This document shows positions 5,286-29,901 of a DNA stretch of 33,509 bases, piece by piece. The position numbers and the translations under genes are program-made. The notes under the pieces were generated by a model. That model searched no databases. It worked only from the letters and a program-made list of their open reading frames with translations, and had not been told where the DNA came from. Source of the DNA: Metabacillus rhizolycopersici (GTDB taxonomy: Bacteria; Bacillota; Bacilli; Bacillales; Bacillaceae); NCBI RefSeq assembly GCF_020075705.1, contig NZ_JAIQUM010000060.1:1-33509 (forward strand). Reading direction: 5' to 3'. The stretch's first letter is position 1. Each line of letters begins with the position of its first letter.

Positions 5286-6314
5286 ATGTGTAACTTAGAC
5301 CTTCATGTGGATCAAGTTATTTCTTTTTTAAAAGAAAATGGAGGAAATCATGTATCTCATCTGATCTTCTTACAAGATAAAGAAGTTTATTGGGCCGGGC
5401 AGCAAAAAGTATTAATTATATATAAACGAATCGCTAATAAATTAGTAGTATTAGGTGATCCAATCGGTGAAGAATTATATATACAAGGAGCTATTAAAGA
5501 ATTTAATGAATATTGCGAAAGTAAAGGACTCAAACCGATATTCTACCAAATTAGCCCTCAATTCATGCAGTATTATCATGAAACAGGTTATAGATTCCTG
5601 AAGTTAGGAGAAGAAGGAATCGTGAATCTCCAAACCTTTTCTCTTGAAGGAAAACGTTGTGCAAAATTACGAACAAGATTTAATAAATTTGCTCGAAATT
5701 CCTATACATTTATTGTTGTCAAACCACCTTATTCTAAAGAACTTCTTTCAGAGATTAAATCTATTTCGGATTCGTGGTTAGGAAAAAAGAAGGAAAAAGG
5801 ATTTTCAGTTGTTTCTTTTAGTGAAGAATATATTTCTCGTTTCCCTATAGCCCTTTTATTTGATTCTGATAAGAACATTATTGCTTTTGCAACATTAGCA
5901 ACTGATTATAAAAAGACAATTAGCATTGACTTAATGAGAAAATCTTCTGATAGCCCTCATGGAACAATGGATGTTTTATTTATTCATATCTTTAAATGGG
6001 CAAAAGATAAAGATTATCAAACATGTAGTTTAGGAATGGCACCACTCTCAAATGTTGGAAATTGTAAATATTCGTTCATAAGTGAAAAACTTATTCGCAT
6101 GGTATATCTTCATGGAAATTCATTATATAATTTTAAAGGTCTTAGAGAATTTAAAAGTAAATTTGCTTGTACGTGGGAACCTAAGTATTTAGCTTCCAAA
6201 AAAACATTCCTGCCAGCTATATTTATACAATTGCTTTTACTAATCAATAGACAACCAACGCCTAAATATAAAGTTATAGGAAAAATTAAATACTTTTTTA
6301 ATAAAGCCGGGTAA
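5286..6314 (+). CDS. Stand-alone MprF-type aminoacyl-PG synthase domain (DUF2156)
   Basis: A 342-residue protein matching the C-terminal catalytic domain of MprF/LysX-type phosphatidylglycerol lysyltransferases. Signature stretches in order: VVLGDPIGE (~60), FYQISPQFMQYYHETGYRFLKLGEEGIVNL (~94-123, quoted in part), SDSWLGKKKEKGFSV (~160), DLMRKSSDSPHGTMDVLF (~218) and LGMAPLSNVG (~253). Family enzymes transfer an amino acid from aminoacyl-tRNA to phosphatidylglycerol, reducing the negative charge of the membrane. The long N-terminal flippase region of MprF is absent; only a short hydrophobic patch near the C-terminus (FLPAIFIQLLLLI) could attach it to the membrane. ATG at 5286 follows GGGGGAAAG. 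A palindrome, CGAACTATTTATAGTTCG (5162-5179), lies upstream. The amino-acid and lipid specificity is unknown. Confidence 0.85.
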   Translation: MCNLDLHVDQVISFLKENGGNHVSHLIFLQDKEVYWAGQQKVLIIYKRIANKLVVLGDPIGEELYIQGAIKEFNEYCESKGLKPIFYQISPQFMQYYHETGYRFLKLGEEGIVNLQTFSLEGKRCAKLRTRFNKFARNSYTFIVVKPPYSKELLSEIKSISDSWLGKKKEKGFSVVSFSEEYISRFPIALLFDSDKNIIAFATLATDYKKTISIDLMRKSSDSPHGTMDVLFIHIFKWAKDKDYQTCSLGMAPLSNVGNCKYSFISEKLIRMVYLHGNSLYNFKGLREFKSKFACTWEPKYLASKKTFLPAIFIQLLLLINRQPTPKYKVIGKIKYFFNKAG

Positions 6315-7640: not shown

Positions 7641-8693
7641 GTGAAAATGAAATGTTTTCTTTTTCCTTTAATTCTTATTATTTTGTGTGGTTGCAGTGTA
7701 CTTGGAAATAAATCTACCGAGTATGAAGTTGTATATAAGGGTGAAGTACATAAACAGAAAGCCATTGAAACTAAAAAGTCACATAAGGATGAACCGTATA
7801 CGATTGGCATTGTGCCTAAAATTGAGGGAATCCCTTATTTCAACGCTGTGAAAGAAGGAGCTTTAGAAGCTGGGAAAGATTTAGGGGTAAATATTATTTA
7901 TAAAGGACCATCTTCTGCTAGTTGGAAGGAGCAGGCCCAAATAATAGACGAATTTATTGAAAGAAATGTAGATGGCATTGCAGTCGCTGCAAACGATCCT
8001 TTAAAATTGGGAAGTGTTTTGCAAAAGGCAAGAAATAGGGGGATAGAAGTGATTACATGGGATTCAGATACTAACCCAGAATTCCGAAGTTTTTTTGTCA
8101 ATATGGTAAACTCAGAAATATTAGGGAGACATTTAATGGATGCGCTTGCAACAGAAATAAATGAGAATGGAAAATACGTAATATTAACTGGCTCGTCCAC
8201 TGCAGCGAATTTAAACGATTGGATAAAATGGATGGAACAACAAAATGTTGAGTATTATCCAAATATGGAACTGGTTGAAGTGATACCAACAAATGAAGAT
8301 CCTCATATAGCTTATATGACGGCACAAAAAATTTTAGATAAATACCCGGATTTAAAAGGGATTATTGGTGTATCTACAGTCAATCCTCCTGTAGCTGCAC
8401 AGGTTGTAAAAGATAAGGGAAAGATAGGTGATATAAAAGTGATCGGTGTATCGTCGCCCCTTTTAATGAAGCCTTTTCTACAAGAGGGAGTTGCACAAAT
8501 GATAACACTGTGGAGCCCTCAAAAACTGGGATACTTAACTGTTAGTTTGGCTACTAACTTACTAAATGATGAAAGTCCATATAATGGACAACAAATTCGA
8601 AATATTGGTGTCATTGAATATGATGGCGATATGGTAATCATGGGCCAACCAATTGATATCACAAAGGAAAATGTTGATCAATATGATTTTTAA
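7641..8693 (+). CDS. Sugar-binding-protein-like lipoprotein, likely sensor subunit
   Basis: A 350-residue periplasmic-binding-protein type 1 fold, RhaS/LsrB-like, anchored as a lipoprotein: signal MKMKCFLFPLILIILCGC with lipobox LCGC (Cys18). The mature part starts YTIGIVPKIEGIPYFNAVKEGA and ends NVDQYDF, as in LsrB and its relatives, and resembles the transporter binding protein at 17620 along its whole length. Because it is encoded with, and overlaps, the histidine kinase gene, it probably senses rather than transports; XylFII with LytS/YesN in clostridia is a known precedent. The residues where LsrB has the AI-2-binding Asp-Gln read AANLNDW here, so AI-2 is unlikely. GTG at 7641 follows GGGAGGG by 7 nt. 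A weak TTCCTT-17-CATAAT promoter candidate lies at 7538-7566. Confidence 0.8.
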   Translation: MKMKCFLFPLILIILCGCSVLGNKSTEYEVVYKGEVHKQKAIETKKSHKDEPYTIGIVPKIEGIPYFNAVKEGALEAGKDLGVNIIYKGPSSASWKEQAQIIDEFIERNVDGIAVAANDPLKLGSVLQKARNRGIEVITWDSDTNPEFRSFFVNMVNSEILGRHLMDALATEINENGKYVILTGSSTAANLNDWIKWMEQQNVEYYPNMELVEVIPTNEDPHIAYMTAQKILDKYPDLKGIIGVSTVNPPVAAQVVKDKGKIGDIKVIGVSSPLLMKPFLQEGVAQMITLWSPQKLGYLTVSLATNLLNDESPYNGQQIRNIGVIEYDGDMVIMGQPIDITKENVDQYDF

Positions 8694-10482
8694 AAATAAA
8701 TCAATAAATGATTTGAGATTATCAAACAAATTAATTATTACGTACGTATTATTAACTGTTATTCCAATGGCCATATTAGGATTCATCGTATATAGCCAAT
8801 TTTCAAAATCTATTGAGAGACAGGTTGGGGAATATGTCCCTCAATTATTAAGTCAAGCGAATCAAAATATAGAAAATGAAATTAGAAAACTTGAAGATTT
8901 ACCTGAACTTATTTATAGCTCTGGTGAAGTGATGGAAGTTTTAAGGGATCATCGTGTACAAAATAAATCATCGCTTCTTCGAGGTAAGTATATTGTTCAA
9001 AACTATTTATCTAGTATTTACCTTACTTCAAATAATTCTAATATATTGGGTGCATTTTTAATTTCAAATCAGCGCCTATTTGCTAGCACTCGAACATCCT
9101 ATCAAGGATTCGGTTTTGATGATGGGTCATTTCCCTATGCAAACGATACGATTCAAGTCGGTAATATGGATTTGTTGTTATCCAATCAAATAAATTTAAC
9201 ATTTAAAGATAATCCATCGTATATATTACTTGTTAAACAAATTACAGACTTTGATAATAGAGAACATTTAGGCACCTTATACTTAGCTGTGAATGTGAGC
9301 TTTTTTGAGAAAGTACTAGAAGACTTGAATAGTAAAGACAATAATGAAATGTGGCTCATGGATAAACAAGGTAAGATTTTTTATCATACAAATGCAGGTA
9401 AAATAGGGAAAACAATGGAAGAGATTAATGAATTTCCATTTTTAAATGGAAGTTTCCGTACAAATGTGAATGGTCAACAAACACTAATTAGTTTAGCTGA
9501 GGGGAAAGAATTTTCTTGGATTTTAGGACATAGTATTCCGAAGAAAAATTTAACGGAACAAACGGATATTGTTAGAAATGTAACCGTTGTTATATTTATT
9601 ATAATGGCTTGTATCACGACTGTTATTTCTATTCTTTTGGCATGGACAGTAACAAGGCCGATTAAACAATTGAGTCATATCATGAAAGATGTAGAGACAG
9701 GAGATTTTAATGTTGAAATTCCTATTCATTCTGGTGATGAAGTCGGTATCCTGGCAAAAAGTTTTCGCTCGATGCTTTTCAAAATACGAGAATTGATTCA
9801 AAAAAATTACTTGAGAGAAATTCGGCAAAAAAATGCTGAATTATATGCGTTGCAGTCTCAAATTAACCCTCATTTTATGTACAATACGTTGGAAACGATC
9901 GGAATGGCAGTTGAGGAAGGCGAGCAAGAGCAGAGCGTTCATATGATTGCATTGCTAGGGAGAATGATGAGATTTTCGATTAGTAATAAAGACAGTCTTG
10001 TTTTAATTTCCAGCGAAGTTCAGCATATTCGTGACTATCTGAGTATTCAAAAGTTCAGATTTGAAGACCGGTTATCCTTTCATATTCATGAAGATATTAA
10101 TAGTATCAAGTATTATACTCCGAAGTTTGTTATGCAACCAATTATTGAAAACGCAATCAAATACGGATTGGAGAAAAGAAAAGAAATAGTGATTGAAATA
10201 GAAGTGGTTGAAGAAATCACTCCAGATGGAAAGGCAGTTATTTTATTTATTATCCGAGATAATGGGCCTGGTATGGAAGAAAATACATTATTAAGGATAA
10301 AAGATTTGTTAGTATCGGATCCAATGAAAAGCAGAGATTCCGGATTTGGGATTATTAACGTACATGCTAGGATTGCGATGATGTTTGGCGAGGAATATGG
10401 ATTACAACTAAAAAGTAAAGTGGAGAAAGGAACGGAAGTCTTTCTGAGAATTCCCAAAACCATCGAACCTAAAATAGAGTAA
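8683..10482 (+). CDS. YesM/LytS-type sensor histidine kinase
   Basis: About 599 residues. One transmembrane helix near the N-terminus (LIITYVLLTVIPMAILGFIVY) is followed by a ~250-residue extracellular sensor domain, a second helix (TVVIFIIMACITTVISILLAW), a HAMP linker (TRPIKQLSHIMKDVETGDFN), the His_kinase phospho-acceptor box QINPHFMYNTLE (His397) and an ATP-binding domain with IIENAIKYGL (~487) and DNGPGM (~526). The extracellular domain would contact the neighbouring lipoprotein. The reading frame overlaps the lipoprotein gene. ATG at 8683 gives the usual short N-terminus for this family; ATG 8671 and TTG 8653 are alternatives, and the site AAAGGA (8663-8668) is spaced ideally for none of them, pointing to translational coupling. 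Confidence 0.9.
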   Translation: MIFKNKSINDLRLSNKLIITYVLLTVIPMAILGFIVYSQFSKSIERQVGEYVPQLLSQANQNIENEIRKLEDLPELIYSSGEVMEVLRDHRVQNKSSLLRGKYIVQNYLSSIYLTSNNSNILGAFLISNQRLFASTRTSYQGFGFDDGSFPYANDTIQVGNMDLLLSNQINLTFKDNPSYILLVKQITDFDNREHLGTLYLAVNVSFFEKVLEDLNSKDNNEMWLMDKQGKIFYHTNAGKIGKTMEEINEFPFLNGSFRTNVNGQQTLISLAEGKEFSWILGHSIPKKNLTEQTDIVRNVTVVIFIIMACITTVISILLAWTVTRPIKQLSHIMKDVETGDFNVEIPIHSGDEVGILAKSFRSMLFKIRELIQKNYLREIRQKNAELYALQSQINPHFMYNTLETIGMAVEEGEQEQSVHMIALLGRMMRFSISNKDSLVLISSEVQHIRDYLSIQKFRFEDRLSFHIHEDINSIKYYTPKFVMQPIIENAIKYGLEKRKEIVIEIEVVEEITPDGKAVILFIIRDNGPGMEENTLLRIKDLLVSDPMKSRDSGFGIINVHARIAMMFGEEYGLQLKSKVEKGTEVFLRIPKTIEPKIE

Positions 10483-10503
10483 TGTCGAAAGGGGAAGTTA
10501 ACA

Positions 10504-12150
10504 GTGGGGATAATTAAAACTGTTATCGTAGATGACGAGCCAAGAATTAGAAAAGGAATCGAAAGACTTGTACTCTCAAATGGAGAAGAGTGGGAAGTTA
10601 TCGGCGTGTTTACCGATGGACAGGAAGCATATGATGCCATTGTGAATACGTTTAAATCAATCGATTTACTAATCACAGACGTTCAAATGCCCATCATGGA
10701 TGGTTTAACTCTCATTAAAAAATTAAACAGTGAATCGAAGGATTTTTTCTCGATGATTATTAGTGGCTTTGATGATTTCAAATATGCACAAGAAGCCATT
10801 CGCGAAGGGGCAAATGATTATATTTTAAAACCAATTGATCGAGAAAAATTTCAATTACAACTAAATGATGTAAAAGAAAAAATTATTCGAAAGCGAAAAG
10901 AAGAAGATAGATTGAGAGATATTCAAGAAAGGGCGTCACAACTATCTTATTCCAAACAAATTCAATTTTTAAGTGAGGTGACCTGGAATGATGAAACAGA
11001 TATTTCGTTAATGGAATGGGTTTTCCAGTTTCCTCAGGGGCGATATAAATTTGCCCATATCGACATCGATCAAATTTTTACAAAAGCGAATGAAGTTTCA
11101 TCATCAGAGCTTAGAACTTGGCATTTTGCTGTTGAGAATATTATTAAAGAGACGATGGCAAATGAATTAAGCAATCAAGGGGTTGATGCTTGGATCTGGA
11201 AGAATGATAATTTAAGTTTTTGGTTATTGTTATTTGATAAGGAGATAAATAGAATTGACTCATCTTTTTCCTACTTAATTGAGGAATATTTATTAAAGTT
11301 AAAAAAGACAATTCGACAATATTTGAAATTTACAGCGTCGATTGCAATCGGAAATGAATTTGAGGATTTATCACTTTTGCCAACGATGAGAGATCAATTA
11401 CTATCATTAATACAATTTCGAATTATTGAAGGCAATAATAGGATTTTCCAACTAAGTACTTTGAACGATCTTTCAAGCGAAAAACCATCGATTATGCCAT
11501 CTTCGGTCTATAAGTATACAGAGCAGATCGTAAATGCGCTAGGAGAAAAAAATGAAGCTGATGTGTCAAAGGCTCTCTTTAATTTTTTCCAGGAAATGGA
11601 GACTTTAAAATCACCTTTAATAATTCAGGAATCTATACAATATTTATGTATCCGTAGCATTAACCATTGGGTAGAAAATGATGGTTTGGCTGAAGATATC
11701 AACATGCTTATTGAGGCATTTAAAATAACTAAAAAATCGAGTAATTTAATTCAATTAAAGGATGGAATTAAGACCTGGATGATCCGTTTAGTAAAGAAAA
11801 TGAAAGAAATAAATTCCAGTCATTCCGATCCGATTCATCAAGTAAAAACGTGGGTTAATCATCATTTGAGCGAAAATATTACGATCAAGAAATTGGCGGA
11901 CAACGTATACTTAAACCCTACTTATTTATGTGAAATATTTAAAGCGCAGACGGGTGAAACTGTATTAAATTATGTGACAAATGCAAGATTAAAAAAGGCA
12001 AAGGAATTATTAGAAAAGACTGATTTGAAAATTTATGATGTAGCTACAAATGTAGGCTACCAAGATACGAAATATTTTAGTCGACTATTTAGACAATGGA
12101 CAAATCAGTCACCATCCCAATATAGGGAGAGATATAATAAACTCTATTAA
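10504..12150 (+). CDS. YesN-type AraC-family response regulator
   Basis: A 548-residue regulator. The receiver domain holds the acidic pocket D10/D11, phospho-acceptor D59 (LLITDVQMP) and K109 (ILKPID). A ~300-residue middle region has no clear motif, and the C-terminal ~100 residues are a double AraC helix-turn-helix (VYLNPTYLCEIFKAQTGETV, then VGYQDTKYFSRLFRQW). It is the cognate partner of the kinase encoded 21 bp upstream, and a terminator after it closes the signalling unit. It probably activates the metabolic operon starting at 12361, through sites in the intervening ~150 bp. GTG at 10504 is preceded by AAAGGGGAAG. Confidence 0.92.
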   Translation: MGIIKTVIVDDEPRIRKGIERLVLSNGEEWEVIGVFTDGQEAYDAIVNTFKSIDLLITDVQMPIMDGLTLIKKLNSESKDFFSMIISGFDDFKYAQEAIREGANDYILKPIDREKFQLQLNDVKEKIIRKRKEEDRLRDIQERASQLSYSKQIQFLSEVTWNDETDISLMEWVFQFPQGRYKFAHIDIDQIFTKANEVSSSELRTWHFAVENIIKETMANELSNQGVDAWIWKNDNLSFWLLLFDKEINRIDSSFSYLIEEYLLKLKKTIRQYLKFTASIAIGNEFEDLSLLPTMRDQLLSLIQFRIIEGNNRIFQLSTLNDLSSEKPSIMPSSVYKYTEQIVNALGEKNEADVSKALFNFFQEMETLKSPLIIQESIQYLCIRSINHWVENDGLAEDINMLIEAFKITKKSSNLIQLKDGIKTWMIRLVKKMKEINSSHSDPIHQVKTWVNHHLSENITIKKLADNVYLNPTYLCEIFKAQTGETVLNYVTNARLKKAKELLEKTDLKIYDVATNVGYQDTKYFSRLFRQWTNQSPSQYRERYNKLY

Positions 12151-12160
12151 TAAGCAGAGT

Positions 12161-12205
12161 AAGACTACTCTTTGGAGATTTTATTCCAATGAGGGTCTTT
12201 TTTTT
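12161..12205 (+). terminator. Terminator between regulators and metabolic operon
   Basis: Left arm AAGACTACTCTTTGGA (12161-12176) pairs with TCCAATGAGGGTCTT (~12185-12199), with one bulge and one mismatch, followed by a long T-run to 12205. It separates the sensor/regulator transcript from the catabolic operon, implying that the latter has its own promoter. Confidence 0.8.
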
Positions 12206-12215
12206 AATGATCCGA

Positions 12216-12242
12216 ACAATATCCCCCTAATCAGAATATTGT
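12216..12242. promoter_or_regulatory. Inverted repeat, candidate operator of the operon
   Basis: ACAATAT (12216-12222) and ATATTGT (12236-12242) form a perfect 7-bp inverted repeat with 13 nt between. The two halves can also be read as loose direct repeats (GAACAATATCCCCCTA and GAATATTGTCTCCTA). It lies between the terminator and the first metabolic gene, where an AraC-type response regulator would be expected to bind. Confidence 0.35.
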
Positions 12243-12291
12243 CTCCTAGTAATAAAGCTACATTCTTTATATAGTGAAATTAACAAGAAGG

Positions 12292-12318
12292 TTGACTGAT
12301 AAGTTATCATATTCTAAT
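12292..12318 (+). promoter_or_regulatory. Candidate promoter of the sugar operon
   Basis: TTGACT (12292-12297) and TCTAAT (12313-12318) are separated by 15 nt, shorter than ideal, which would suit an activator-dependent promoter. It lies ~45 bp ahead of the first start codon. A TATA-rich stretch at 12267-12275 is an alternative -10 region. Confidence 0.35.
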
Positions 12319-12360
12319 GAAAAAGATGTCAACAAATAAGTAATGAAAGGAAGTGTACGT

Positions 12361-13050
12361 ATGGCATTGATCGGTCCTTCACTTATGTGTGCTGATATGG
12401 GGAATCTTCAAGATTCAGTTTTAAAACTAGATCAAGCAGGAGTAGATTTTTTCCATATCGATGTAATGGATGGGAAATTTGTTCCGAACTTTACATTAGG
12501 TCCGGATTTAATTAAGAGATTAAGAGAATTTACAGAAAAACCTTTCGATGTACATCTTATGGTTGATAAGCCGGAAGATTACTTAAATTTGTTTATTGAA
12601 TCAGGTGCAGACATGATATCTGTTCATGCGGAAGCTACGAATCATTTGCAAAGAACATTACAAACAATAAAAGATAAAGGTTTGAAGGCAGGAGTAGCTA
12701 TAAATCCTGCAACTTCTATTCATGATATTGAGTATGTGTTGGATGTAGTCGATTATATAACGGTGATGACTGTAAATCCTGGATTTGCGGGACAAAAATT
12801 TGTTCCACTTATGAACAAGAAGCTAAAAGATTTAACAAATCTAATAAATGAAAACGGATACAAAATTGATATTCAAGTAGATGGAAATATTGGCTATGAA
12901 ACTATTCCTAATGTATTGAAGAATGGGGCTAATATGCTAGTTTGTGGAACTTCTAGTTTATTTAAGCCAGACCTTCCATTAGCATTAGCGGTTGCTAAAC
13001 TACGAAATTTTATCGAAGATGTCGAAGTCAATAAAAGTATAAAAATGTGA
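12361..13050 (+). CDS. Ketose-phosphate 3-epimerase, AlsE/Rpe family
   Basis: A 229-residue (beta/alpha)8 barrel of the ribulose-phosphate 3-epimerase family. Motifs in order: IGPSLMCADM, HIDVMDGKFVPNFTLGP, DVHLMVDKPEDY, VMTVNPGFAGQKF and GTSSLF. The opening SLMC, the alanine in PGFAGQ and GTSxLF resemble E. coli AlsE (D-allulose-6-phosphate 3-epimerase) more than a housekeeping Rpe (PGFGGQ). The enzyme inverts C3 of a ketose phosphate, either D-xylulose-5-P/D-ribulose-5-P or a hexose analogue. ATG at 12361 was chosen because AAAGGAAG sits 8 nt upstream; that site lies inside the short extension from an ATG at 12343. It is the first gene of the metabolic operon. Confidence 0.85.
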   Translation: MALIGPSLMCADMGNLQDSVLKLDQAGVDFFHIDVMDGKFVPNFTLGPDLIKRLREFTEKPFDVHLMVDKPEDYLNLFIESGADMISVHAEATNHLQRTLQTIKDKGLKAGVAINPATSIHDIEYVLDVVDYITVMTVNPGFAGQKFVPLMNKKLKDLTNLINENGYKIDIQVDGNIGYETIPNVLKNGANMLVCGTSSLFKPDLPLALAVAKLRNFIEDVEVNKSIKM

Positions 13051-13059
13051 GGGATAAAC

Positions 13060-14019
13060 ATGGCTGAAATAACGGTTGTAGGGAGCATCAACATGGATAT
13101 CGTTGCTCTAACAAATCGATATCCTGGACATGGGGAAACCCTTTTTGGACATAGTGTGAAAACCTTATGTGGCGGTAAAGGGGCTAATCAAGCAACAGCT
13201 TGTGCTCGGCTTGGAAAATCAGTAAATATGATAGGTTCGATCGGTCTTGATTCATACGGAAAAGAAATAGAGAAAAATTTTAAAGAGAATCAGATAGAGA
13301 CCTCTTTTTTAAAACTAGTTGAAGATGAATCAACTGGATGTGCCATTATTACCGTAGATGCGACAGCTGAAAATACAATGCTAGTCGTTAAAGGGGCTAA
13401 TGATTCTTTAAACGAGCATGATGTTCAAAAGGCTTTTTCGCAAATAGAAACCAGCAAAATTTTACTAGTACAAATGGAAATTCCTGAAGCGGCGGTTATT
13501 CGTGCCATGATGGAAGCTAAAAGGAAAGGGATGTTCATCATCTTGGATCCGGCTCCTGCAGAGGGTGTCACAAAACAAGCTTTGCTTTATGCGGACATCA
13601 TTACACCTAATCTGCAAGAAACAAAACAGCTAACGGGAATTGATGTAACGTCAATCAAAACAGCCATCGAAGCAGGCAAATATTTTGATCAATATCTTGG
13701 TGTTAAAAATAGTGTGATCAAAATGGCTGATAAAGGCGCATTGCTATATGAAAACGGCAAATCAATCTTTATTGAAGCGATTCCAGTGAAAGCTGTAGAT
13801 ACGGTTGGAGCTGGTGATTCATATGCTGGGGCATTGGCATGTGCGCTAGCAGATGGAGAAAGTCTTGAATCAGCTGCGCGATTTGCGGCGATTGTGGCAG
13901 CGCTTAAAGTATCCAAATTAGGAGCGCAATCAGGATTACCTACAATGGATCAAATAAATGAATATTGTGCAGAACATAATCTTACTTATTACGGTCTTCA
14001 GACGAGACAATTAAGATAA
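13060..14019 (+). CDS. rbsK: Ribokinase-family (PfkB) sugar kinase
   Basis: A 319-residue PfkB-fold kinase close in length to ribokinase. N-terminal SINMDIVALTNRYPGHGET is followed by CGGKGANQATACARLG (PfkB signature 1), LDPAPAEGV, ITPNLQET and the C-terminal DTVGAGDSYAGALACAL (anion hole and catalytic Asp in GAGD). Family members phosphorylate the hydroxymethyl group of ribose or related sugars with ATP. It starts 9 bp after the epimerase stop with GAGGGATAA as ribosome site. In this operon it may act on ribose or on the operon's own sugar, in parallel with the FGGY kinase. The symbol follows the family, and its true substrate is open. Confidence 0.82.
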   Translation: MAEITVVGSINMDIVALTNRYPGHGETLFGHSVKTLCGGKGANQATACARLGKSVNMIGSIGLDSYGKEIEKNFKENQIETSFLKLVEDESTGCAIITVDATAENTMLVVKGANDSLNEHDVQKAFSQIETSKILLVQMEIPEAAVIRAMMEAKRKGMFIILDPAPAEGVTKQALLYADIITPNLQETKQLTGIDVTSIKTAIEAGKYFDQYLGVKNSVIKMADKGALLYENGKSIFIEAIPVKAVDTVGAGDSYAGALACALADGESLESAARFAAIVAALKVSKLGAQSGLPTMDQINEYCAEHNLTYYGLQTRQLR

Positions 14020-14048
14020 AGCTGCAAGAGCTAGAACGGAGGGTGAAA

Positions 14049-15599
14049 GTGACTAAATATTTACTAGAAATGACGAATATTAGTAAAACATTTCCTGGTG
14101 TAAAGGCACTCGATGATGTGAGTCTCCAAATTAAAAAAGGAGAGGTTCATGCTTTAATTGGAGAAAACGGAGCGGGAAAATCGACATTAATAAAAATACT
14201 AGCTGGAATATACACACCTGATGAAGGAGCGAACTTCCTTTTTGAAGGAAAAGAAGCACAGATTAATAAACCAATCGATGCGACACTAAAAGGTATATCT
14301 ATTATTTATCAAGATTTGAGTTTATTTTCTAATTTATCGGTTGCGGAAAATATTTATATAGGACGCGATAGTAATAAAAAGCCATGGAAAAAAGTAAATT
14401 GGAGCGAAATGGAAACAATCGCAAAAAAAGCCCTTAAAGAACTAGATTTTGAAGTCGATGTTCACACTCCAGTGGAAAAACTAAGTATTGCCCAGCAACA
14501 ATTAATTGAAATCGCTCGTGCACTTGCGTTTGATTCAAAATTAATTGTTATGGATGAACCGACCTCTTCGCTTTCAACTGGGGAAGTTGAAAAACTGTAC
14601 AAGGTAATTAATAAGTTAAAACAAAGAGGAATATCTATTATTTTCGTCAGCCATAAACTAAAAGAATTATTTACGGTTTCAGATCAATTTACAGTATTAC
14701 GTGATGGGAAGTATGTAGGTAGCTATCCTGCGACTAAACTAGATGAAGATAAATTAATTACATTAATGGTAGGTAGACAAGTACAGTATGAAAAAAATCA
14801 AAAAAGAATAGCTGGTGGCCAAACTTTACTAGAGCTTCATCAACTATCGAAGGATGGAAATTTTAAGGACATTTCCTTTGAACTAAAAGCGGGAGAAGTG
14901 CTAGGTATTACAGGATTAGTTGGCTCAGGCCGTACAGAACTTGCACAAGCTATTTTCGGAATGAACAGACCGGATTCAGGGGTAATGAAGTTAAACGGTG
15001 AATCTGTCCAAATTAAATCATCAGTAGATGCTGTGAAACACAAGATTGCTTATATACCGGAGAGTAGGAAAACACAAGGTCTTATATTAGGGCAATCAAT
15101 TATTAATAATATTTCTCTCCCAATTTTGCATCAGCTGCGTGATCGTCTTGGATTGATTAAACGTAAAAAAGAAATTGACTTGGCCAATCACTATGTTGAA
15201 ACACTTGATGTGAGACCTGCACTTCCACATAGAGCAGCAGGAGATCTTTCCGGAGGAAATCAGCAAAAAGTAGTCATTGGAAAATGGCTCTCTACAAAAC
15301 CGCAAATATTAATCATTGATGAGCCAACAAACGGAATTGATATCGGTGCAAAAACAGAAATTCATAAATTACTTCGACAACTCGCAGCTGAGGGAATGGG
15401 TATTATTGTAATTTCATCAGAATTACCAGAGGTACTAGCGGTAAGCGATCGTATTTTAGTCATGAGGCATGGGAAAATAGCAGGGGGATTAAATATTGAA
15501 GAAGCAACGCAAGAAAACATTATGAATTACGCCTTGTTCGGCTCTCAAAATGCTACAACAGAAACGGACACGCCCGTTAGTCAGGGGGTTATTGCATGA
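14049..15599 (+). CDS. Sugar ABC transporter ATPase (RbsA/RhaT-like)
   Basis: About 516 residues with two fused nucleotide-binding domains. Domain 1: Walker [13 protein letters not shown], signature [15 protein letters not shown] (non-standard, usual in this family), Walker [12 protein letters not shown]. Domain 2: degenerate P-loop [12 protein letters not shown], signature [15 protein letters not shown], Walker [13 protein letters not shown]. This two-domain form powers importers of monosaccharides such as ribose, rhamnose or AI-2. Of the possible starts, GTG at 14049 is placed better after GGAGGG than GTG at 14043, which touches it. Its stop overlaps the next gene by 4 bp. Confidence 0.92.
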
Positions 15600-16579
15600 A
15601 AACATTTTTAAAGTCAAAAGAAATGAGTATTGTAGGCGTTGTGTTATTACTTTGTATCACATTAGCCTTTGTAAGCCCAGTTTTCCTTACTGCAGATAAC
15701 CTTCTAGATGTTTTAAAGGCAAACTCAGTCATCGGTATTTTAGCGGTAGGAATGACGTTAATTATCATTACTGGGGGAATAGATGTATCTGTTGCTGCAG
15801 TGACAAGTGCTGTCTGTGTCATTACAGTCAAATTAATGATGATTATGCCGGATCATTTTATTTCCTTATTATTAGCATTTTTAGTTGCACCATTATTAGG
15901 AATTCTCCTAGGAGCTCTTAATGGAGTGTTAGTATCGAAGATTAAGATTCCAGCAATTGTTGTAACGTTAGGGATGATGAGTATAATCAATGGATTAGTT
16001 CTCTATATAACGAATGGTGTATATCTAAATAGTAGTAATTTTCCGCAAATTTTTATTAACTTTGCAAATATAAAAATATTTGGCGTATCAATTATTATTC
16101 TCATTTTTGCAGCTGTTGCTTTTTTAACATGGTACATCTTGAAATATACATTAATCGGACGCGAAGTGTTAGCTATTGGTGGAAATAAAGAATCCGCGGT
16201 ACGAGTGGGGATAAACTTCGATAAAGTTCAAATTTTTGTATTTTCATATATGGGCTTTTTAGCAGGGATTGCTGCAATTGCTCAAACTGCATATACAAAA
16301 TCAGTAGATCCAAATGGGATGCTTGGTTTAGAGCTAATGGTTATTGCTGCTGTTGTACTAGGCGGAGCTAACATTATGGGTGGACGTGGCACCATTTTGG
16401 GAACAGTTTTAGGAGTGTTGTTGTTAGGTATTATTCAGAACGGTCTTATCTTAGCTCAAATTGATCCATTTTGGCAAAAAGTATTTACTGGAATCATTAT
16501 TCTATTAGCCGTTTCTTTTGATCAACTTCAATATAAACGCTCACAAAACAAGTTAGCCAAGATCGAAGTAGAAGCTTAA
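15596..16579 (+). CDS. Sugar ABC transporter permease 1 (RbsC-like)
   Basis: A 327-residue membrane protein with 8-10 hydrophobic segments. Characteristic BPD_transp_2 stretches are present: TLIIITGGIDVSVAAVTSA near the N-terminus, ALNGVLVSKIKIPAIVVTLG, GREVLAIGGNKESAVRVGI and VLGGANIMGGRGTILGTVLG. It overlaps the ATPase stop (ATGA), implying coupled translation. With the second permease it would form the membrane channel, the arrangement (one ATPase, two different permeases, one binding protein) seen in Lsr, Rha and YtfQRT/YjfF importers. Confidence 0.9.
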   Translation: MKTFLKSKEMSIVGVVLLLCITLAFVSPVFLTADNLLDVLKANSVIGILAVGMTLIIITGGIDVSVAAVTSAVCVITVKLMMIMPDHFISLLLAFLVAPLLGILLGALNGVLVSKIKIPAIVVTLGMMSIINGLVLYITNGVYLNSSNFPQIFINFANIKIFGVSIIILIFAAVAFLTWYILKYTLIGREVLAIGGNKESAVRVGINFDKVQIFVFSYMGFLAGIAAIAQTAYTKSVDPNGMLGLELMVIAAVVLGGANIMGGRGTILGTVLGVLLLGIIQNGLILAQIDPFWQKVFTGIIILLAVSFDQLQYKRSQNKLAKIEVEA

Positions 16580-16594: not shown

Positions 16595-17557
16595 ATGAAA
16601 GCGATATCATTACCAAAAGAGAATATTTTAGGATTAATTGCTTTAAGTGTATTTGTGCTAATGAGTCTCTTTATACCAGGGTTCTTTGGCCATAATAATT
16701 TAAATAATATGATGTTCCAGCTTCCGGAATTTGGATTACTTGCCATTGCGATGATGATTGTGATCGTGACAGGTGGTATTGATCTATCTATCACATACAT
16801 TGCGGCATTATCAGGAGTAACTATTGCTATTATGCAAAGCCATGGATATCCAATCATTCCGTCTATTATCGTAGGAATTATCGTAGGGCTCTTATGTGGT
16901 TTGTTAAATGGAGTGATTGTATCAAAAATCGGTGTTTCTCCAATCCTTGTTACATTGGGAACAATGGTGTTGTTTGAAGGAATCATCCTTAGTATTACAA
17001 AAGGGAATTCTATATCTGGTTTTAGTGAGGTTTATAGTCTAATAGGAAATGGCTATTATATGGGGATTGTTCCACTTTCAATGATCATCTTTATTATCAT
17101 GGCGATATTAACGGGCGTTCTCTTAACAAAAACTAAATGGGGCAGAAGCGTTTATATGGTTGGTAGTAACCCAGTAGCTTCCCTATTTTCTGGGGTAAAT
17201 AATAGTAGAGTCCTAATGAAAGTTTATTTATTTGCTGCATTGCTTTCAGTAATTGCTTCTATCATTATGACTTCACGTTATAACTCAGCAAAAGTAGATT
17301 TAGGGTCTTCTTATCTTTTACAAAGTGTATCTGCAGCCGTTCTTGGTGGAACAGAAATTCAAGGTGGCTATGGAAAAGTAATTGGAACAGTATACGCAGC
17401 TATCATTTTCCAAATGCTCTCCAGTGGACTGAATTTACTAGGTGTTCCAAGGTCAATCGTGAACGTCATTATGGGAGCTATTTTGATCTTTGTCTTAGTA
17501 TTAAACTTCGTAAAATATAAATTGGATGAAAAAGCTCAAAAAACAGCTGTAGCATAA
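16595..17557 (+). CDS. Sugar ABC transporter permease 2
   Basis: A 320-residue paralogue of the preceding permease: MMIVIVTGGIDLSITYIAAL, LLNGVIVSKIGVSPILVTLG, GRSVYMVGSNPVASLFSGV and AVLGGTEIQGGYGKVIGTVY follow the same order. It starts 16 bp after permease 1 with AAAAGGGGTGAG as ribosome site. The two presumably form a heterodimer in the membrane. Confidence 0.9.
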   Translation: MKAISLPKENILGLIALSVFVLMSLFIPGFFGHNNLNNMMFQLPEFGLLAIAMMIVIVTGGIDLSITYIAALSGVTIAIMQSHGYPIIPSIIVGIIVGLLCGLLNGVIVSKIGVSPILVTLGTMVLFEGIILSITKGNSISGFSEVYSLIGNGYYMGIVPLSMIIFIIMAILTGVLLTKTKWGRSVYMVGSNPVASLFSGVNNSRVLMKVYLFAALLSVIASIIMTSRYNSAKVDLGSSYLLQSVSAAVLGGTEIQGGYGKVIGTVYAAIIFQMLSSGLNLLGVPRSIVNVIMGAILIFVLVLNFVKYKLDEKAQKTAVA

Positions 17558-17619: not shown

Positions 17620-18651
17620 ATGAAAAAAATTCTTGGACTTATTACATCAGTAATGCTTGTAGGAGTTTTATTAGCAGGATGTGTGTCAGGCGGTGCTGCT
17701 GGAAGTAGCAGTGAAAAACAAAGCAGAGGTGACAATGACAAAATAAAAATTGCTGTTGTTCCAAAGTTGATTGGTATTCCATATTTTAACTCTTCCGAAG
17801 AAGGTGCGATTCAAGCAGGTAAAGATTTAGGGGTAGAAGTTATTTATACTGGTCCAACAGAAGCAGATGCAGCACAACAAGTAAAAGTTATTGAAGATTT
17901 AATTAGTCAAAATGTTGATGCAATCGCAGTTGCACCAAATGATGCTGCATCATTAACACCAGTGCTTAAAAAAGCAAAAGAGCAAGGAATTATTATCATC
18001 GACTGGGATACACCAGCTGACCAATCACTTGTAGAACTATCTGTTCACCAAATTGATGACGAAGCATATGGTCGTCACTTTACAAAAACGCTTGTTGAAC
18101 AAATGGGCACTGAAGAAGGAGAAATTGCTATTGTAACAGGTGGACTTTCTGCAGCAAATTTAAATACTTGGATTGATGCTGCAAAGAAAGAAATAGAAGA
18201 GAATTATCCTGGACTTAAGTTAGTAACAGATAAAATTCCTACCGATGAAAAACAACAAGTAGCGTATCAAAAAACATTAGATTTAATGAAGTCTCATCCG
18301 AATTTAAAAGGTATTATGGTTTTTTCAACACCAGCGCCACTTGGAGTAGCTCAAGCAATCCAGGAAAAAGGAATGCAGGATAAAATTGCAGTTATCGGTG
18401 GAACATTACCAAAGGATTCTATTCCTTATTTAGAAGATGGTTCTTTAGATATGGCCGTATTATGGGAGCCAGATAAATTAGGATATTTAACAGTTTCCCT
18501 TGCAAAAGATTTAGTTGAAGGGAAAAAACCAGAAAATGGACAAAATGTTGAAAATGTAGGGGAAATTGAGCTTTGGAAAGATGGAAAAACTGTTATCATG
18601 GGACCTCCTACTGACTTTACAAAAGAAAATGCTGGAGACTATGATTTCTAA
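17620..18651 (+). CDS. Sugar-binding lipoprotein of the ABC importer (RhaS/LsrB-like)
   Basis: A 343-residue lipoprotein: signal MKKILGLITSVMLVGVLLAG with Cys21 in the lipobox LAGC, then a Gly/Ser linker. The mature part has KIAVVPKLIGIPYFNSSEEG, VIYTGPTEADAAQQV, NVDAIAVAPNDA, IIDWDTPADQ and the C-terminal NAGDYDF, the pattern of LsrB/RhaS-type binding proteins. LsrB's AI-2 ligands Asp-Gln correspond to Asn-Leu in AANLNTW, so it probably binds an ordinary sugar. It resembles the putative sensor lipoprotein at 7641 throughout. AGAGGGAG is placed well before ATG 17620. A strong hairpin after the gene may protect its message and raise its level over downstream genes. Confidence 0.9.
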   Translation: MKKILGLITSVMLVGVLLAGCVSGGAAGSSSEKQSRGDNDKIKIAVVPKLIGIPYFNSSEEGAIQAGKDLGVEVIYTGPTEADAAQQVKVIEDLISQNVDAIAVAPNDAASLTPVLKKAKEQGIIIIDWDTPADQSLVELSVHQIDDEAYGRHFTKTLVEQMGTEEGEIAIVTGGLSAANLNTWIDAAKKEIEENYPGLKLVTDKIPTDEKQQVAYQKTLDLMKSHPNLKGIMVFSTPAPLGVAQAIQEKGMQDKIAVIGGTLPKDSIPYLEDGSLDMAVLWEPDKLGYLTVSLAKDLVEGKKPENGQNVENVGEIELWKDGKTVIMGPPTDFTKENAGDYDF

Positions 18652-18732: not shown

Positions 18733-19689
18733 ATGATACAGGAGCAAAATTATAAAATTAAGGACCATAAAATTCGCGAAGCCTTTTTCAAATTAAAAAG
18801 AGAGCAGCCGGAACGATTCAAACAGAAATTGAATTTGTCATGGAGTAATTGGGGATTTGGGCTTGAAACGTTAGAAGCCTCAGTTAAAAGATTAAAAGAA
18901 AGCGATATTAATTTTATTGAACTTCACGGAAACCATTATGGGGATGATCTTGGTTATCAAGCCGAAGAAACAATAGAGATCCTTACAAAGTATGAAATGA
19001 AAGTATCTGGTGTGTGCGGAATGTTTTCAGTAGAAAATGATCTTTCTAGCAATATTCCAAGTAAACGGCAAGCAGCGATTGATTATATTAAGAGAGAACT
19101 TGAGTTCATGAATAAGGTTGGAGGACATTATTTATTAGTTGTACCAGGGGCTGTAGGTAGACCTAATGCATATGACGACGCAGAGTTTGAGAGAAGCGTG
19201 GAGACGTTAAACATCGTTAGTGATCTATTTGTGAAATATGGCATCAAAGGAGTAATTGAGCCGATTCGTGCCGCAGAAACGAGTTTCATTCATACAGTAG
19301 CTGATGCAAAAAATTATATTAAGGCAGTAGGGCACCAAGGAATCAATCATATTAATGCTGACGTGTATCATATGCAATCAGAGGAAGCACATATTGGTGA
19401 AGCAGTTCTTGAAGCAGGAGATCAACTTGTCAATCTTCATATGGCAGATAGTAATCGTGGTGCATTGGGACAAGGTTTTATGGATTTAGACACGATCATT
19501 ATGGCATTATATCTAATTGGCTATAATCAGGACGGGAAATTTGTTACTCCTGAACCACTAGGCCCAGGTGGAGATCCTTACCCTGCAATGAACTCTATTC
19601 CTGACCCTAAAAAATTAAATCATTTAGTTTCACAAACTGCAAATTATTTTAGAGAACGTGAAAACATACTTCTAGAAAGAAATGAATAA
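18733..19689 (+). CDS. TIM-barrel ketose 3-epimerase (D-tagatose 3-epimerase-like)
   Basis: A 318-residue protein of the xylose-isomerase-like TIM barrel (AP-endonuclease 2) superfamily. Metal ligands are visible as E176 (GVIEPIRAAET), D210 (NADVYHMQ), H236 (VNLHMADSNRGALGQG) and E274 (VTPEPLG). Their spacing (34, 26, 38) closely follows that of D-tagatose/D-psicose 3-epimerases (33, 26, 35), and HMADSNR...GxG corresponds to the family's substrate-binding Arg loop. It would interconvert ketoses at C3, for example L-xylulose and L-ribulose, or act on the phosphate as UlaE/SgbU does. Between the transporter and the kinase genes, it likely supplies the FGGY kinase's substrate. Start ATG 18733 follows AATAGGGAG. 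Confidence 0.8.
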   Translation: MIQEQNYKIKDHKIREAFFKLKREQPERFKQKLNLSWSNWGFGLETLEASVKRLKESDINFIELHGNHYGDDLGYQAEETIEILTKYEMKVSGVCGMFSVENDLSSNIPSKRQAAIDYIKRELEFMNKVGGHYLLVVPGAVGRPNAYDDAEFERSVETLNIVSDLFVKYGIKGVIEPIRAAETSFIHTVADAKNYIKAVGHQGINHINADVYHMQSEEAHIGEAVLEAGDQLVNLHMADSNRGALGQGFMDLDTIIMALYLIGYNQDGKFVTPEPLGPGGDPYPAMNSIPDPKKLNHLVSQTANYFRERENILLERNE

Positions 19690-19757: not shown

Positions 19758-21353
19758 TTGAATCTAATAAAAGTTGATATTGCTAACAGTCGAACAGCTT
19801 TAGGTATTGAGTTTGGTTCTACTCGTATCAAAGCAATTTTGATTGATTCCAGTCATTCGCCAATAGCTTCCGGAAGCTATGCATGGGAGAATATTTTGAA
19901 AGAGGGGATATGGACATATTCTCTTGATGATATTTGGAAAGGTCTTCAAATAAGTTATCAAGAAATGGCAACTGAAGTGAAAGAAAAGTATGGAGTAACT
20001 CTTCAAAACGTTGGTTCAATTGGCTTTAGTGGGATGATGCACGGCTATATGGCGTTTAACAAAGATGGAGAGTTGTTGGTTCCATTTCGTACCTGGAGGA
20101 ATTCAATCACTGAACAATCGGAAAAAAAATTAACAGAGCTCTTCAATTATAATATCCCGCAAAGATGGAGCATTGCTCATTTGTATCAAGCAATTCTAAA
20201 TGAAGAAGAACATGTAGAAGATATTGATTTTTTCACCACACTAGCTGGCTATATCCACTGGAAGTTGACAGGCAAAAAAGTTTTAGGGATTGGAGATGCT
20301 TCCGGTATGTTTCCAATTGATGTGGAAACAAAGAATTATGATATAAGGATGATTCAAGCTTTTAATGATTTGATCAGTGAAAAGAATTATCCGTGGAAAT
20401 TAGAAGAAATTTTACCACAGGTGATGCTTGCCGGCAATCAAGCCGGGCACTTATCAGAAGAAGGAGCAAAGCTATTAGATGTGTGCGGGAACCTTCAAGT
20501 TGGTATTCCACTTTGTCCTCCAGAAGGCGATGCAGGAACTGGTATGGTCGCAACAAACAGTGTTTCAGAGCGTACAGGAAATGTTTCAGCAGGAACTTCA
20601 GTGTTTGCTATGATTGTGCTGGAAAAAGAATTGAAAAAGGTTTATCCGGAGATTGACCTAGTTACCACGCCTTCTGGTAATCTGGTTGGTATGGTTCATG
20701 CGAATAACTGTTCATCTGATATCAATGCTTGGGTGAAGCTTTTCAGTGAGTTTTCAGAAGTTCTAGGTTGTAAAGTAAATACAGACAAAATCTTCGAAAT
20801 CTTATTCAATAAGGCCCTTGAAGGGGATAGGGATTGCGGAGGACTATTGTCTTACGGCTATTATTCTGGTGAGAATACCACAGGAATGAGAGAAGGTCGG
20901 CCATTATTCGTACGTTCACCAGAAAGTAATTTCAATCTTGCAAACTTTATGCGCGTACATTTATTCTCAGCACTTGGAGCTCTGAAAATCGGAATGGATA
21001 TTCTGTTAAATGAAGAAAATATTCAGATTGACAAAATATTGGGACATGGAGGATTGTTTAAGACCAAAGGTGTTGGACAAAAGGTAATGGCCGCAGTTAT
21101 GAATGCACCTGTATCTGTTATGGAAACTGCTGGTGAAGGCGGTGCATGGGGGATTGCTCTGCTTGCATCTTTTATGACCAAAAGAGAAGAAAATGAATCA
21201 TTGGAAGAGTATCTTGACAAAAAAGTATTTATTGACTATGCCGGTGTAAAAGTAGATGCAGACGAAAAAGATGCTGAAGGCTTTGAAGTCTTTATCAAGC
21301 GCTATAAACAAGGACTTACAATCGAGCAAGCAGCCATTGATAGTTTAATTTAA
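19758..21353 (+). CDS. FGGY-family carbohydrate kinase
   Basis: Up to 531 residues from TTG 19758, typical FGGY length. Motifs: phosphate-1 loop [15 protein letters not shown] (~16-30), [14 protein letters not shown] with RTWRNSIT, phosphate-2 [11 protein letters not shown], and the adenosine region [17 protein letters not shown] followed by [13 protein letters not shown]. Such kinases phosphorylate the terminal hydroxyl of ribulose, xylulose or similar. Followed by AraD, the expected product is a ketopentose 5-phosphate, possibly L-ribulose-5-P. The start is odd: the ribosome site (AGGGGGGAA, ~19729-19737) is ~20 nt from TTG 19758 but 7 nt from an in-frame ATA (19743), followed by TTA GCT AAT AAG. 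The original start may have been an ATG mutated to ATA. Confidence 0.88.
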
Positions 21354-21439: not shown

Positions 21440-22135
21440 ATGTTAGAACAGTTGAAAAAAGATGTTTTGGAAGCGAATCTTCAGCTTCCAAAACATGGTC
21501 TAGTCACTTTTACCTGGGGAAATGTAAGCGGAATTGACCGAGAACAAGGTTTAGTTGTTATTAAACCAAGCGGTGTTCCATACGAAAAGTTAAAAGTTGG
21601 GGATCTTGTTGTTTTAAATCTTGATGGCGAAATCGTGGAAGGGACTTTAAGACCTTCTTCCGATACCCCGACACACCTTGCTCTGTACCGTGGATTTTCG
21701 CAAATTGGCGGAATCGTTCATACTCATTCACCATGGGCTACGAGCTGGGCACAAGCTCATCGGCCGATTCCAGGGCTTGGAACGACGCATGCGGATTATT
21801 TTTACGGTGAAATTCCTATAACACGTCTACTAACTCAACAAGAAATTATGAATGGATATGAATTAGAAACAGGCAATGTCATCATAGAAACTTTTGAAAA
21901 ACTAGACCTTGACCCAATAGCAATGCCAGGCGTTCTTGTCGCTTCACATGCCCCATTTTGTTGGGGAAAGAATGCAGATGAAGCTGTTCATAATGCAGTT
22001 GTACTAGATGAAGTGGCCAAAATGGCATTCCATACATTTCAGTTGAATCCACAAATAGACGTAATAGATCAATTTCTGCTTGATAAGCATTATTTAAGGA
22101 AACACGGTCCGGTTGCTTATTATGGACAAAAGTAA
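21440..22135 (+). CDS. araD: L-ribulose-5-phosphate 4-epimerase
   Basis: A 231-residue class II aldolase-fold enzyme, the same length as E. coli AraD. The metal site is visible as D75 (SSDTPTH), H94 and H96 (VHTHSPW) and H170 (ASHAPFCWG), each one residue before the E. coli positions (76, 95, 97, 171). [12 protein letters not shown] and the C-terminal AYYGQ are also conserved. It converts L-ribulose-5-P to D-xylulose-5-P by retro-aldol cleavage and re-addition, delivering the sugar to the pentose phosphate pathway. It is the last gene of the operon. AGGAAGGAAAC precedes ATG 21440. Its last ~150 bp plus 3' flank are repeated at 4893-5079. Confidence 0.95.
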
Positions 22136-28950: not shown

Positions 28951-29901
28951 TTAGAAATGAGTTTTCTCACTCTTTAGTTTACGTATTCTTTGTATAATAA
29001 ACACTCCAGCACCAGCGCCAATTAAACAAAATCCTACAGTTAAAAAGCTAAACATGGAAGTAGCTATGTTTGATGGTTTATTTTCTGCTGGAGGCTCCAC
29101 TTCCTCTGGATCTTCTTTCATAGCTTCTTCGATGGTAATTTCTTCTTTAGGCGGTTGAACTGCAATCCATGCATTAGTAGCTAGTTTTGCTAAAGCTTTG
29201 TGTCCTGCTAATGTAGGGTGAATATCTCCAGGAATAATATAAGTTAATTGATTGTCATTAAAAGTTGAATTTGTATCAAGATAAATGGCCCCTGTAACGG
29301 ACGATAAAGGTCCTATTACTAGAGTGTTTACATTTGTTGTAACTTGCTCACCCAGCATATGTAAGGAAGCGGCAAATGGATCTTGACTTGGTCCAAAAGG
29401 ATTATAGATAGAGTACAGTAAAATAGGTGCAGCTGAATTCGCACGGATAATCGTAATCATTTCTTGTAAATTTACAGCCAGCTGATTCGATGCAAGGTCT
29501 ATTTTAGCTAAATGCTCTTCTGTTGGAACAAACGGCTGTTGTGAGGCGATAATTTCTCCAATTCCAATTGCCTGCATTAAATCATTTGCCCCAATATTTA
29601 ACGTGATAACATCCGCTTCTTGTAGCTTGGCAGCAGCGGCTTGATTGGCTTTTAAATCAGTTAATAAATCAGTAGATGTCCAACCTGGGTAACTTATATT
29701 CGTAACATGATTCGACCCATTTCCGATTAAATGGGGATAAGCTTTGCTTGGTTCTGAAAGTCCGTAACCGTACGTAATCGAATCACCAAGCGAGACAACA
29801 TTCAACTTCTCGGGTTCATCTGCAGATGCAAACGGTGAAAGGATCATGCTTAGAAGTAAAATAATAGCTAGTAGAAATGGTAGTTCCTTAAACCTATTCA
29901 T
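28951..29901 (-). CDS. Membrane-anchored SGNH/GDSL hydrolase
   Basis: A 316-residue secreted esterase-type protein. Signal peptide with a likely cut after ASA (residue 27), then the four SGNH blocks: GDSITYG (Ser41), a glycine in SYPGWTS, GAND, and the catalytic Asp/His in GDIHPTLAGH. A Pro/Glu-rich linker (EEVEPPAENKP) leads to a C-terminal membrane helix (FLTVGFCLIGAGAGVFII) and a basic tail (RIRKLKSEK), so the enzyme is tethered outside the cell with its tail inside. Probable substrates are acyl or acetyl esters of lipids or wall polymers. ATG at 29901 is preceded by AGGAGGA. The gene stands alone. Confidence 0.88.
   Translation of the reverse strand: MNRFKELPFLLAIILLLSMILSPFASADEPEKLNVVSLGDSITYGYGLSEPSKAYPHLIGNGSNHVTNISYPGWTSTDLLTDLKANQAAAAKLQEADVITLNIGANDLMQAIGIGEIIASQQPFVPTEEHLAKIDLASNQLAVNLQEMITIIRANSAAPILLYSIYNPFGPSQDPFAASLHMLGEQVTTNVNTLVIGPLSSVTGAIYLDTNSTFNDNQLTYIIPGDIHPTLAGHKALAKLATNAWIAVQPPKEEITIEEAMKEDPEEVEPPAENKPSNIATSMFSFLTVGFCLIGAGAGVFIIQRIRKLKSEKTHF

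Follow-up and report, generated by a model that had tools for sequence, protein, structure and literature searches.

This analysis concerns three consecutive genes on the forward strand of contig NZ_JAIQUM010000060.1 of Metabacillus rhizolycopersici (assembly GCF_020075705.1), positions 1 to 33,509 of which were analysed (hereafter the window). They encode a sugar-binding lipoprotein, a YesM-type histidine kinase and a YesN-type response regulator (Table 1), and we consider this trio as a candidate three-component sensor for the sugar transport operon behind it. The initial annotation, made from the DNA letters alone, had described a lipoprotein gene overlapping the kinase gene with the regulator gene next, and the three open reading frames of the window sit at the coordinates that it gave. 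The lipoprotein matches the sugar-binding family PF13407 at 204.8 bits in a Pfam scan, and its structure model takes an LsrB-like fold (predicted local distance difference test score, pLDDT, 87.3). Its assignment to the RhaS/LsrB family holds loosely, since with 243 bits on the RhaS model TIGR02637 (cut-off 342.25) and 184.6 bits on the LsrB model NF011937 (cut-off 384) it remains below both thresholds. All four domains of the kinase exceed their Pfam cut-offs, and His407 (of 609 residues) lies in an NPHF motif. As the kinase start, ATG 8683 is more likely than the TTG of the longest frame, because P0121, which is 98 % identical over the compared region, has 599 residues; this ATG falls within the Tyr-Asp codons of YDF at the C-terminal end of the lipoprotein and overlaps the lipoprotein stop. 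The kinase ectodomain, for which the dCache_1 match is above cut-off, is modelled as a dCache fold near many direct small-molecule receptors, and LytSN, the ectodomain of the kinase that works with XylFII, is absent among the fold matches listed for this model.

Table 1. Features of the trio and of the transport operon region, with predicted control elements, in window coordinates
Feature	Positions	Strand	Remarks
Sensor lipoprotein, PF13407 sugar-binding, 350 aa	7641..8693	+	GTG start; lipobox LCGC, Cys18; LsrB-like fold
YesM-type histidine kinase	8653..10482	+	dCache_1, HAMP, His_kinase, HATPase_c; longest frame, from TTG 8653
Kinase extracellular domain, dCache fold	8794..9570	+	limits set by eye from hydrophobic stretches
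YesN-type response regulator, receiver (REC) domain and AraC helix-turn-helix (HTH)	10504..12150	+	phosphoacceptor Asp59
Terminator-like imperfect hairpin and T run, between trio and operon	12161..12205	+	hairpin 12161-12199, T12200-12205
Predicted site of the response regulator, a direct repeat of 40 bp with a 20-bp period	12210..12249	+	upstream of transport operon
Predicted -10 box TATAGT	12270..12275	+	20 nt after the site
Degenerate cre-like (CcpA) sequence	12318..12331	+	strict consensus not matched in the window copy
Ribulose-phosphate/allulose-6-phosphate 3-epimerase-like enzyme	12343..13050	+	
Ribokinase-like PfkB kinase	13060..14019	+	
Sugar ATP-binding cassette (ABC) transporter ATPase	14043..15599	+	
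Sugar ABC permease (first)	15596..16579	+	
Sugar ABC permease (second)	16595..17557	+	
Transporter binding protein	17620..18651	+	paralogue of the sensor lipoprotein, 41 % identical
Sugar 3-epimerase-like TIM barrel (AP_endonuc_2)	18733..19689	+	probably same operon
FGGY sugar kinase	19758..21353	+	
L-ribulose-5-phosphate 4-epimerase AraD	21440..22135	+	391.4 bits, cut-off 389.1

The lipoprotein and kinase genes keep together throughout the relatives that we collected. One genome per GTDB species was scanned with an alignment (A1) of 20 lipoproteins picked blind to gene context, and the best 80 of the 114 confirmed relatives were retained as loci, which by their NCBI names belong to the Bacillaceae (56), Paenibacillaceae (21) and Caryophanaceae (3). 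Taking the longest kinase frame, every one of the 80 shows an overlap of 1 to 128 bases with the lipoprotein gene, and in 79 a regulator frame is present, some being short or cut at contig ends; a pair conserved in every locus is not there by chance. In a second sample, consisting of 193 genomes of the family that contains G002, the genome of locus L002 (scoring was limited to 10 lipoprotein and 6 kinase candidates per genome), there were 35 lipoprotein matches at E 1e-70 or better, of which 30 adjoin a kinase and five do not, these five being relatives of the window's transporter binding protein (69–81 % identity). Homologous lipoproteins lacking the kinase, named beforehand in the initial annotation as the observation that would speak against a sensor, were found neither among the 80 loci nor among the 30 sensor-type lipoproteins of the 193 genomes, and every kinase that these genomes gave at E 1e-90 or better, 30 in all, comes with its lipoprotein. 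Further, an unrooted and quickly built tree of 134 proteins, with long branches, separates 81 sensors from 53 transporter proteins by one branch (Shimodaira–Hasegawa-like approximate likelihood-ratio test, SH-aLRT, 98). The transporter's own binding protein is, as had been proposed, a paralogue of the lipoprotein, and this kinship favours regarding the latter as a second ABC transporter binding protein that stands beside an unrelated two-component system by chance; considering that it accompanies the kinase ahead of transporters of very different kinds, those of the major facilitator superfamily (MFS) included, and that sensors and transporter proteins part on the tree, we find this scarcely conceivable. 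A search of plasmids returned none of 758 records at 60 % identity or above, the 20 matches listed lying at 32.6–35.9 %.

A few loci deviate in their make-up. L050 (10980–12533) has no regulator gene and the least similar kinase (41 %), and is possibly a decaying trio. The Domibacillus loci L045, L074 and L075 have regulators of just 249–270 residues, from which a long middle region is apparently missing, and in L067 two regulator-like frames (12862 and 13702) lie behind the kinase, the first of 229 residues. The sensor of L078 (9998–11044) has no lipobox cysteine, an N-terminal stretch resembling a membrane anchor taking its place.

In the window and 72 loci, the divergence of the lipoprotein tracks that of the kinase ectodomain, which is a contact-like signal. 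The partial correlation of distances is 0.54 between these two, compared with 0.20 between the lipoprotein and the catalytic part of the kinase and -0.08 between the lipoprotein and REC; as an internal control, the catalytic part and REC gave 0.44. Excluded from this set are L006, L050, L054 and the loci with regulators shorter than 480 residues (L042, L045, L067, L074 and L075).

Between the regulator gene and the transport operon lies a probable site for the regulator. Alignment of the regulator–operon gaps of eight window-type sequences revealed a single conserved block, a direct repeat with a period of 20 bp, and the site matrix was built from these eight, the other 73 loci being held out and the threshold set at 20 bits. 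The eight sites score 33.9–47.6 bits when left out one at a time, with at most 10.2 bits for the next best place on either strand, and 219 order-2 Markov sequences yielded no site at or above 20 bits (maximum 17.9). The held-out loci contain 52 such sites in 46 of the 73, every one intergenic and on the operon strand (the intergenic rule tolerates 60 bases of a longest frame, and in L037 and L065 a site touches the start of such a frame), and the gene that follows encodes a RhaS-type ABC ATPase in 26 cases, an MFS transporter in 13, a rhamnosidase in five and another or unlabelled product in eight. Exactly 20 nt past the block, a TATAAT-like hexamer begins in 28 of 60 sites. Within the window the pattern is unique even when three mismatches are allowed (2 of 100 shuffles matched). 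With one mismatch it occurs in 22 of the 193 genomes, that is, in 21 of the 27 that have a trio and in one of the 166 that do not (Fisher p 1e-21), the lone trio-less genome, G086, looking like a chance occurrence; the reversed pattern, used as a control, occurs in one of the 193. Of the 32 places where the pattern was found in these genomes, 21 sit 1.65–1.85 kb past the kinase, directly behind the regulator gene. Since the window-type transport operons of L111, L112 and L113, which have no trio beside them, reach no more than 12.6, 10.2 and 9.4 bits, the site goes with the trio and not with the operon; G166, the genome of L113, carries another trio elsewhere, and that one has its own site. 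Upstream of the trio itself there is no such site in the window, and the trio is thus probably not under the same control as the operon, while at L012 the site precedes an MFS gene directly upstream of the trio.

Given the constant linkage, the split of the tree, the co-divergence with the ectodomain and the probable trio-tracking site before the operon, the proposal of a dedicated sensor apart from the transporter is supported. The claimed terminator between the trio and the operon was likewise recovered, as a terminator-like hairpin with a T run; the hairpin region (66 nt) folds at -15.8 kcal/mol, compared with -10.8 kcal/mol for shuffles (z -2.0; six of 200 shuffles equal it), so that its excess stability is modest, and it is not among the calls of a simple terminator scan. 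Using what we take to be the cre (CcpA) motif, cre-like sequences were seen downstream of the site in L001, L002, L003 and L005, and a strict cre lies within 180 bp of eight of the 60 sites (0.01 expected per site). In L020 (14651) and L028 (14595) the same site stands before an operon led by a 6-phospho-3-hexuloisomerase-type gene (scanned in L028), which continues with a binding protein, an ABC transporter and a ribokinase-like kinase.

We suggest, with a probability of roughly 0.8, that the three genes encode a three-component sugar sensor that works through its binding protein. Anchored on the outer face of the membrane, the lipoprotein would bind a monosaccharide and, in its sugar-bound form, would act on the dCache ectodomain of the kinase encoded by the overlapping gene. 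The kinase, judging by its domain content, may then phosphorylate the regulator at Asp59, and the phosphorylated regulator would bind the predicted 40-bp repeat just upstream of the promoter core, and so switch on the epimerase–kinase–ABC operon behind this predicted site.

This architecture matches XylFII-LytS-YesN, AraPST and CuaDSR. As far as its available descriptions go, XylFII-LytS-YesN of Clostridium beijerinckii, which responds to D-xylose, likewise combines a PF13407-type binding protein, a kinase with an ectodomain and a YesN regulator with sugar transport, and differs in having an XylF-type protein, for xylose. It had been cited in the initial annotation as a precedent with a binding protein of a different family; the architecture is indeed the same, whereas the difference of family does not stand, as XylFII (5xsj, 5xss) is detectably related to the sensor lipoprotein in sequence and fold, and AraP (6sw4) and GanP (6gq0) match it in both respects too, so that the lipoprotein differs from XylFII in subfamily only. 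Also from the Bacillales come AraPST and GanP of Geobacillus stearothermophilus, with binding proteins that share family and fold with the sensor lipoprotein. AraP and GanP reportedly act as sensors with a kinase and a regulator, and what sets them apart is their ligands, arabinose and glucose–galactose, respectively. The gene name araPST appears in the accessible part of PMC4194401, and a PF13407 protein beside YesM–YesN is found in an arabinose locus according to a portion of PMC13068155. In CuaDSR of Ruminiclostridium cellulolyticum, a cellobiose system, the lipoprotein, the kinase and an AraC-type regulator are encoded in one operon that controls the adjacent transporter, and the CuaD lipoprotein binds the kinase ectodomain in two-hybrid assays (PMC10384115, available portion); unlike the trio, this system, as described there, has a cellobiose-binding protein of another structural family and an ectodomain without a predicted domain. 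The design is therefore known, and neither this branch nor the DNA site that it targets seems to have been described: no paper on this sensor family or site was found in the open-access literature as far as its texts were available, subscription papers being outside the search, and the accessible parts of PMC10766802 and PMC8579813 contain no relevant passage on the family.

Several points weigh against a sensor of this kind. According to the same portion of PMC10384115, CuaSR perceives cellobiose even without its lipoprotein, CuaD, so that the lipoprotein of the trio may have an auxiliary role and not an indispensable one. Co-divergence, on which contact rests, could overstate the link, given that both partners lie outside the cell. 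On another reading, the kinase dCache ectodomain would sense the sugar directly and the lipoprotein would do no more than sharpen or concentrate the signal, a division of roles proposed for CuaSR in the presence and absence of CuaD, and the nearness of the ectodomain model to direct small-molecule receptors agrees with this; we nevertheless consider it quite unlikely, given that all 30 family kinases of the 193 genomes are accompanied by the lipoprotein and that lipoprotein divergence tracks the ectodomain. As to the site, 27 of the 73 held-out loci have none at 20 bits, some being cut contigs, with true misses among Paenibacillus, Planomicrobium and Halalkalibacter loci, and six of the 27 trio genomes are without the pattern. 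Moreover, the loci are related and the 193 genomes are partly the same as the loci, so that the counts are not independent events.

For the ligand of the three-component sensor, the gene neighbourhood is informative. By the genes behind the trio, the 80 loci comprise 48 with a CUT2 ABC operon, 24 with none downstream (some of which, L006 among them, end at a contig edge), seven that are window-like and one intermediate. According to BLAST labels, tied to NCBIfam models by scanning representatives of L048, L012, L114 and L001, 39 of the 48 CUT2 loci carry a RhaS-like binding protein and 12 a rhamnosidase, and of the 24 non-CUT2 loci 16 have an MFS transporter, six RhaA and six RhaB; the transporter binding protein of L048 passes the RhaS model (376.6 bits, cut-off 342.25). 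A rhamnose gene (RhaEW, RhaA, RhaS-like or rhamnosidase, at set identities) is present in the fetched flanks of 53 of the 80. From these neighbour genes L-rhamnose is the commonest setting of the trio, and it is probably the family's usual ligand. The proposal of the initial annotation that sensor and transporter share a ligand may hold, and is to be read alongside these rhamnose neighbours. A comparison of rhamnose regulons names RhaR and RhgR for Bacillales and describes AraC-family direct repeats with a 21-bp period (PMC3870299, in part); the words lipoprotein, two-component and histidine kinase are absent from its main text.

In the clade of the window the ligand is probably no longer L-rhamnose but another sugar, one handled by its operon. 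When nine window-clade sensors were compared with 69 others (L020, L028 and L037 being set aside and L006 included on the basis of its place in a tree), four positions differed at 0.89 or more in both groups, namely E219 (D in the others), T246 (S), N248 (G) and Q294 (K). In the model, each of them lies in a strand-to-helix loop (such loops make up 63 of 265 residues; chance 0.003, for a strict set chosen after the table was seen), and looser thresholds give 11 sites, eight of them within residues 54–318 and five of these eight in such loops. Strand-to-helix loops are expected to line the ligand cleft in a fold of this kind. The sensors of L020 and L028 show the window-clade state at each of the four positions. 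At position 219, window-type transporters have E too and RhaS-type ones D, and the other three positions are not fully mirrored by the transporters. The four differences would fit a changed ligand in the window's clade, although they do not name the sugar.

Alternatively, the window sensor may still respond to L-rhamnose, the operon being induced alongside rhamnose catabolism. Rha-type genes lie at most 10 kb upstream of the trio in five of the seven window-type loci (L001–L004 and L007, that of L003 being a 42 % RhaB relative only), and the order past the site in L002 and L114 is epimerase, kinase, ABC, binding protein, 3-epimerase, ribulokinase, AraD, RhaB, RhaA, so that in L114 RhaB and RhaA come after AraD; the frequency of rhamnose genes in the flanks of the 80 loci points the same way. 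This alternative is possible but doubtful, since E219, T246, N248 and Q294 are near-fixed and all in the loops, no rhamnose enzyme is present among the window proteins scanned, and the window's transporter binding protein also scores below the RhaS cut-off. A literature search for rhamnose isomerase with ribulokinase and AraD gave no match. Returning to a shifted ligand, we tentatively put forward, at somewhat less than even odds, that a rhamnose-sensing Bacillales family switched sugar via few cleft substitutions while retaining the same type of kinase, regulator and operator, that the window's clade together with L020 and L028 senses a rare ketose or pentose (for example D-allulose, or a sugar of the L-lyxose/L-xylulose type), and that genomes with two trios share one operator code. 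If true, the shared code raises the question of how cross-talk is avoided. With so few differences between the clades, the way in which a sensor binding protein changes its ligand can be examined on a small set of residues.

Database names point elsewhere. Many relatives, P0002 included, are named 'autoinducer 2 ABC transporter substrate-binding protein' at NCBI, a name that residues and context do not support. LsrB receptors are the nearest solved sequences and folds, which together with the naming would favour a sensor of autoinducer-2 (AI-2). Yet of what we take to be the six AI-2 contacts of LsrB (K35, D116, D166, Q167, P220 and A222), the sensor keeps four (K60, D141, P250 and A252), with N190 and L191 in place of D166 and Q167, and of 80 sensors (L037 left out) 73 have N at position 190 and not one has D. 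The LsrB score is far under its cut-off, and the AI-2 kinase model is not among the matches listed for the operon's FGGY kinase; AI-2 sensing by the trio is accordingly very improbable, and we caution against reading these proteins as quorum-sensing receptors. In LuxP–LuxQ of Vibrio, which perceives AI-2, a binding protein of the same superfamily acts on a tandem-PAS/dCache kinase, and the system differs in its hybrid phosphorelay, its free periplasmic receptor and its quorum signal. A family whose members often carry AI-2 names can, on the present results, be redefined as sugar sensors for which an operator, its targets and the spacing to the -10 box are predicted. Taken together as a module, the lipoprotein, the kinase and the operator could lend sugar sensing to Gram-positive hosts.

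Turning to the operon, 12361 is the more likely start of the 3-epimerase-like gene, because its relatives in L002 and L005 begin MALIGPS. An AP_endonuc_2-type gene holds the same position behind the binding protein in L111 and L114. The FGGY kinase was considered as part of the operon core and rejected: in three of eight genomes its close relatives (67–87 %) are on contigs other than that of the trio, and L114 and L111 have a ribulokinase in its stead. A 432-residue protein recurs at window-type loci (L001, 8435–9733; L002, 8577–9875; L115, 3910–5208), with a class II aldolase domain in the copy of L115. Elsewhere in the window, 5286–6314 encodes a free-standing MprF C-terminal synthase domain without the flippase part, and 28951–29901, on the minus strand, encodes a GDSL lipase with an LPxTATN-like sorting signal that scores 28.9 bits against a curated cut-off of 32.

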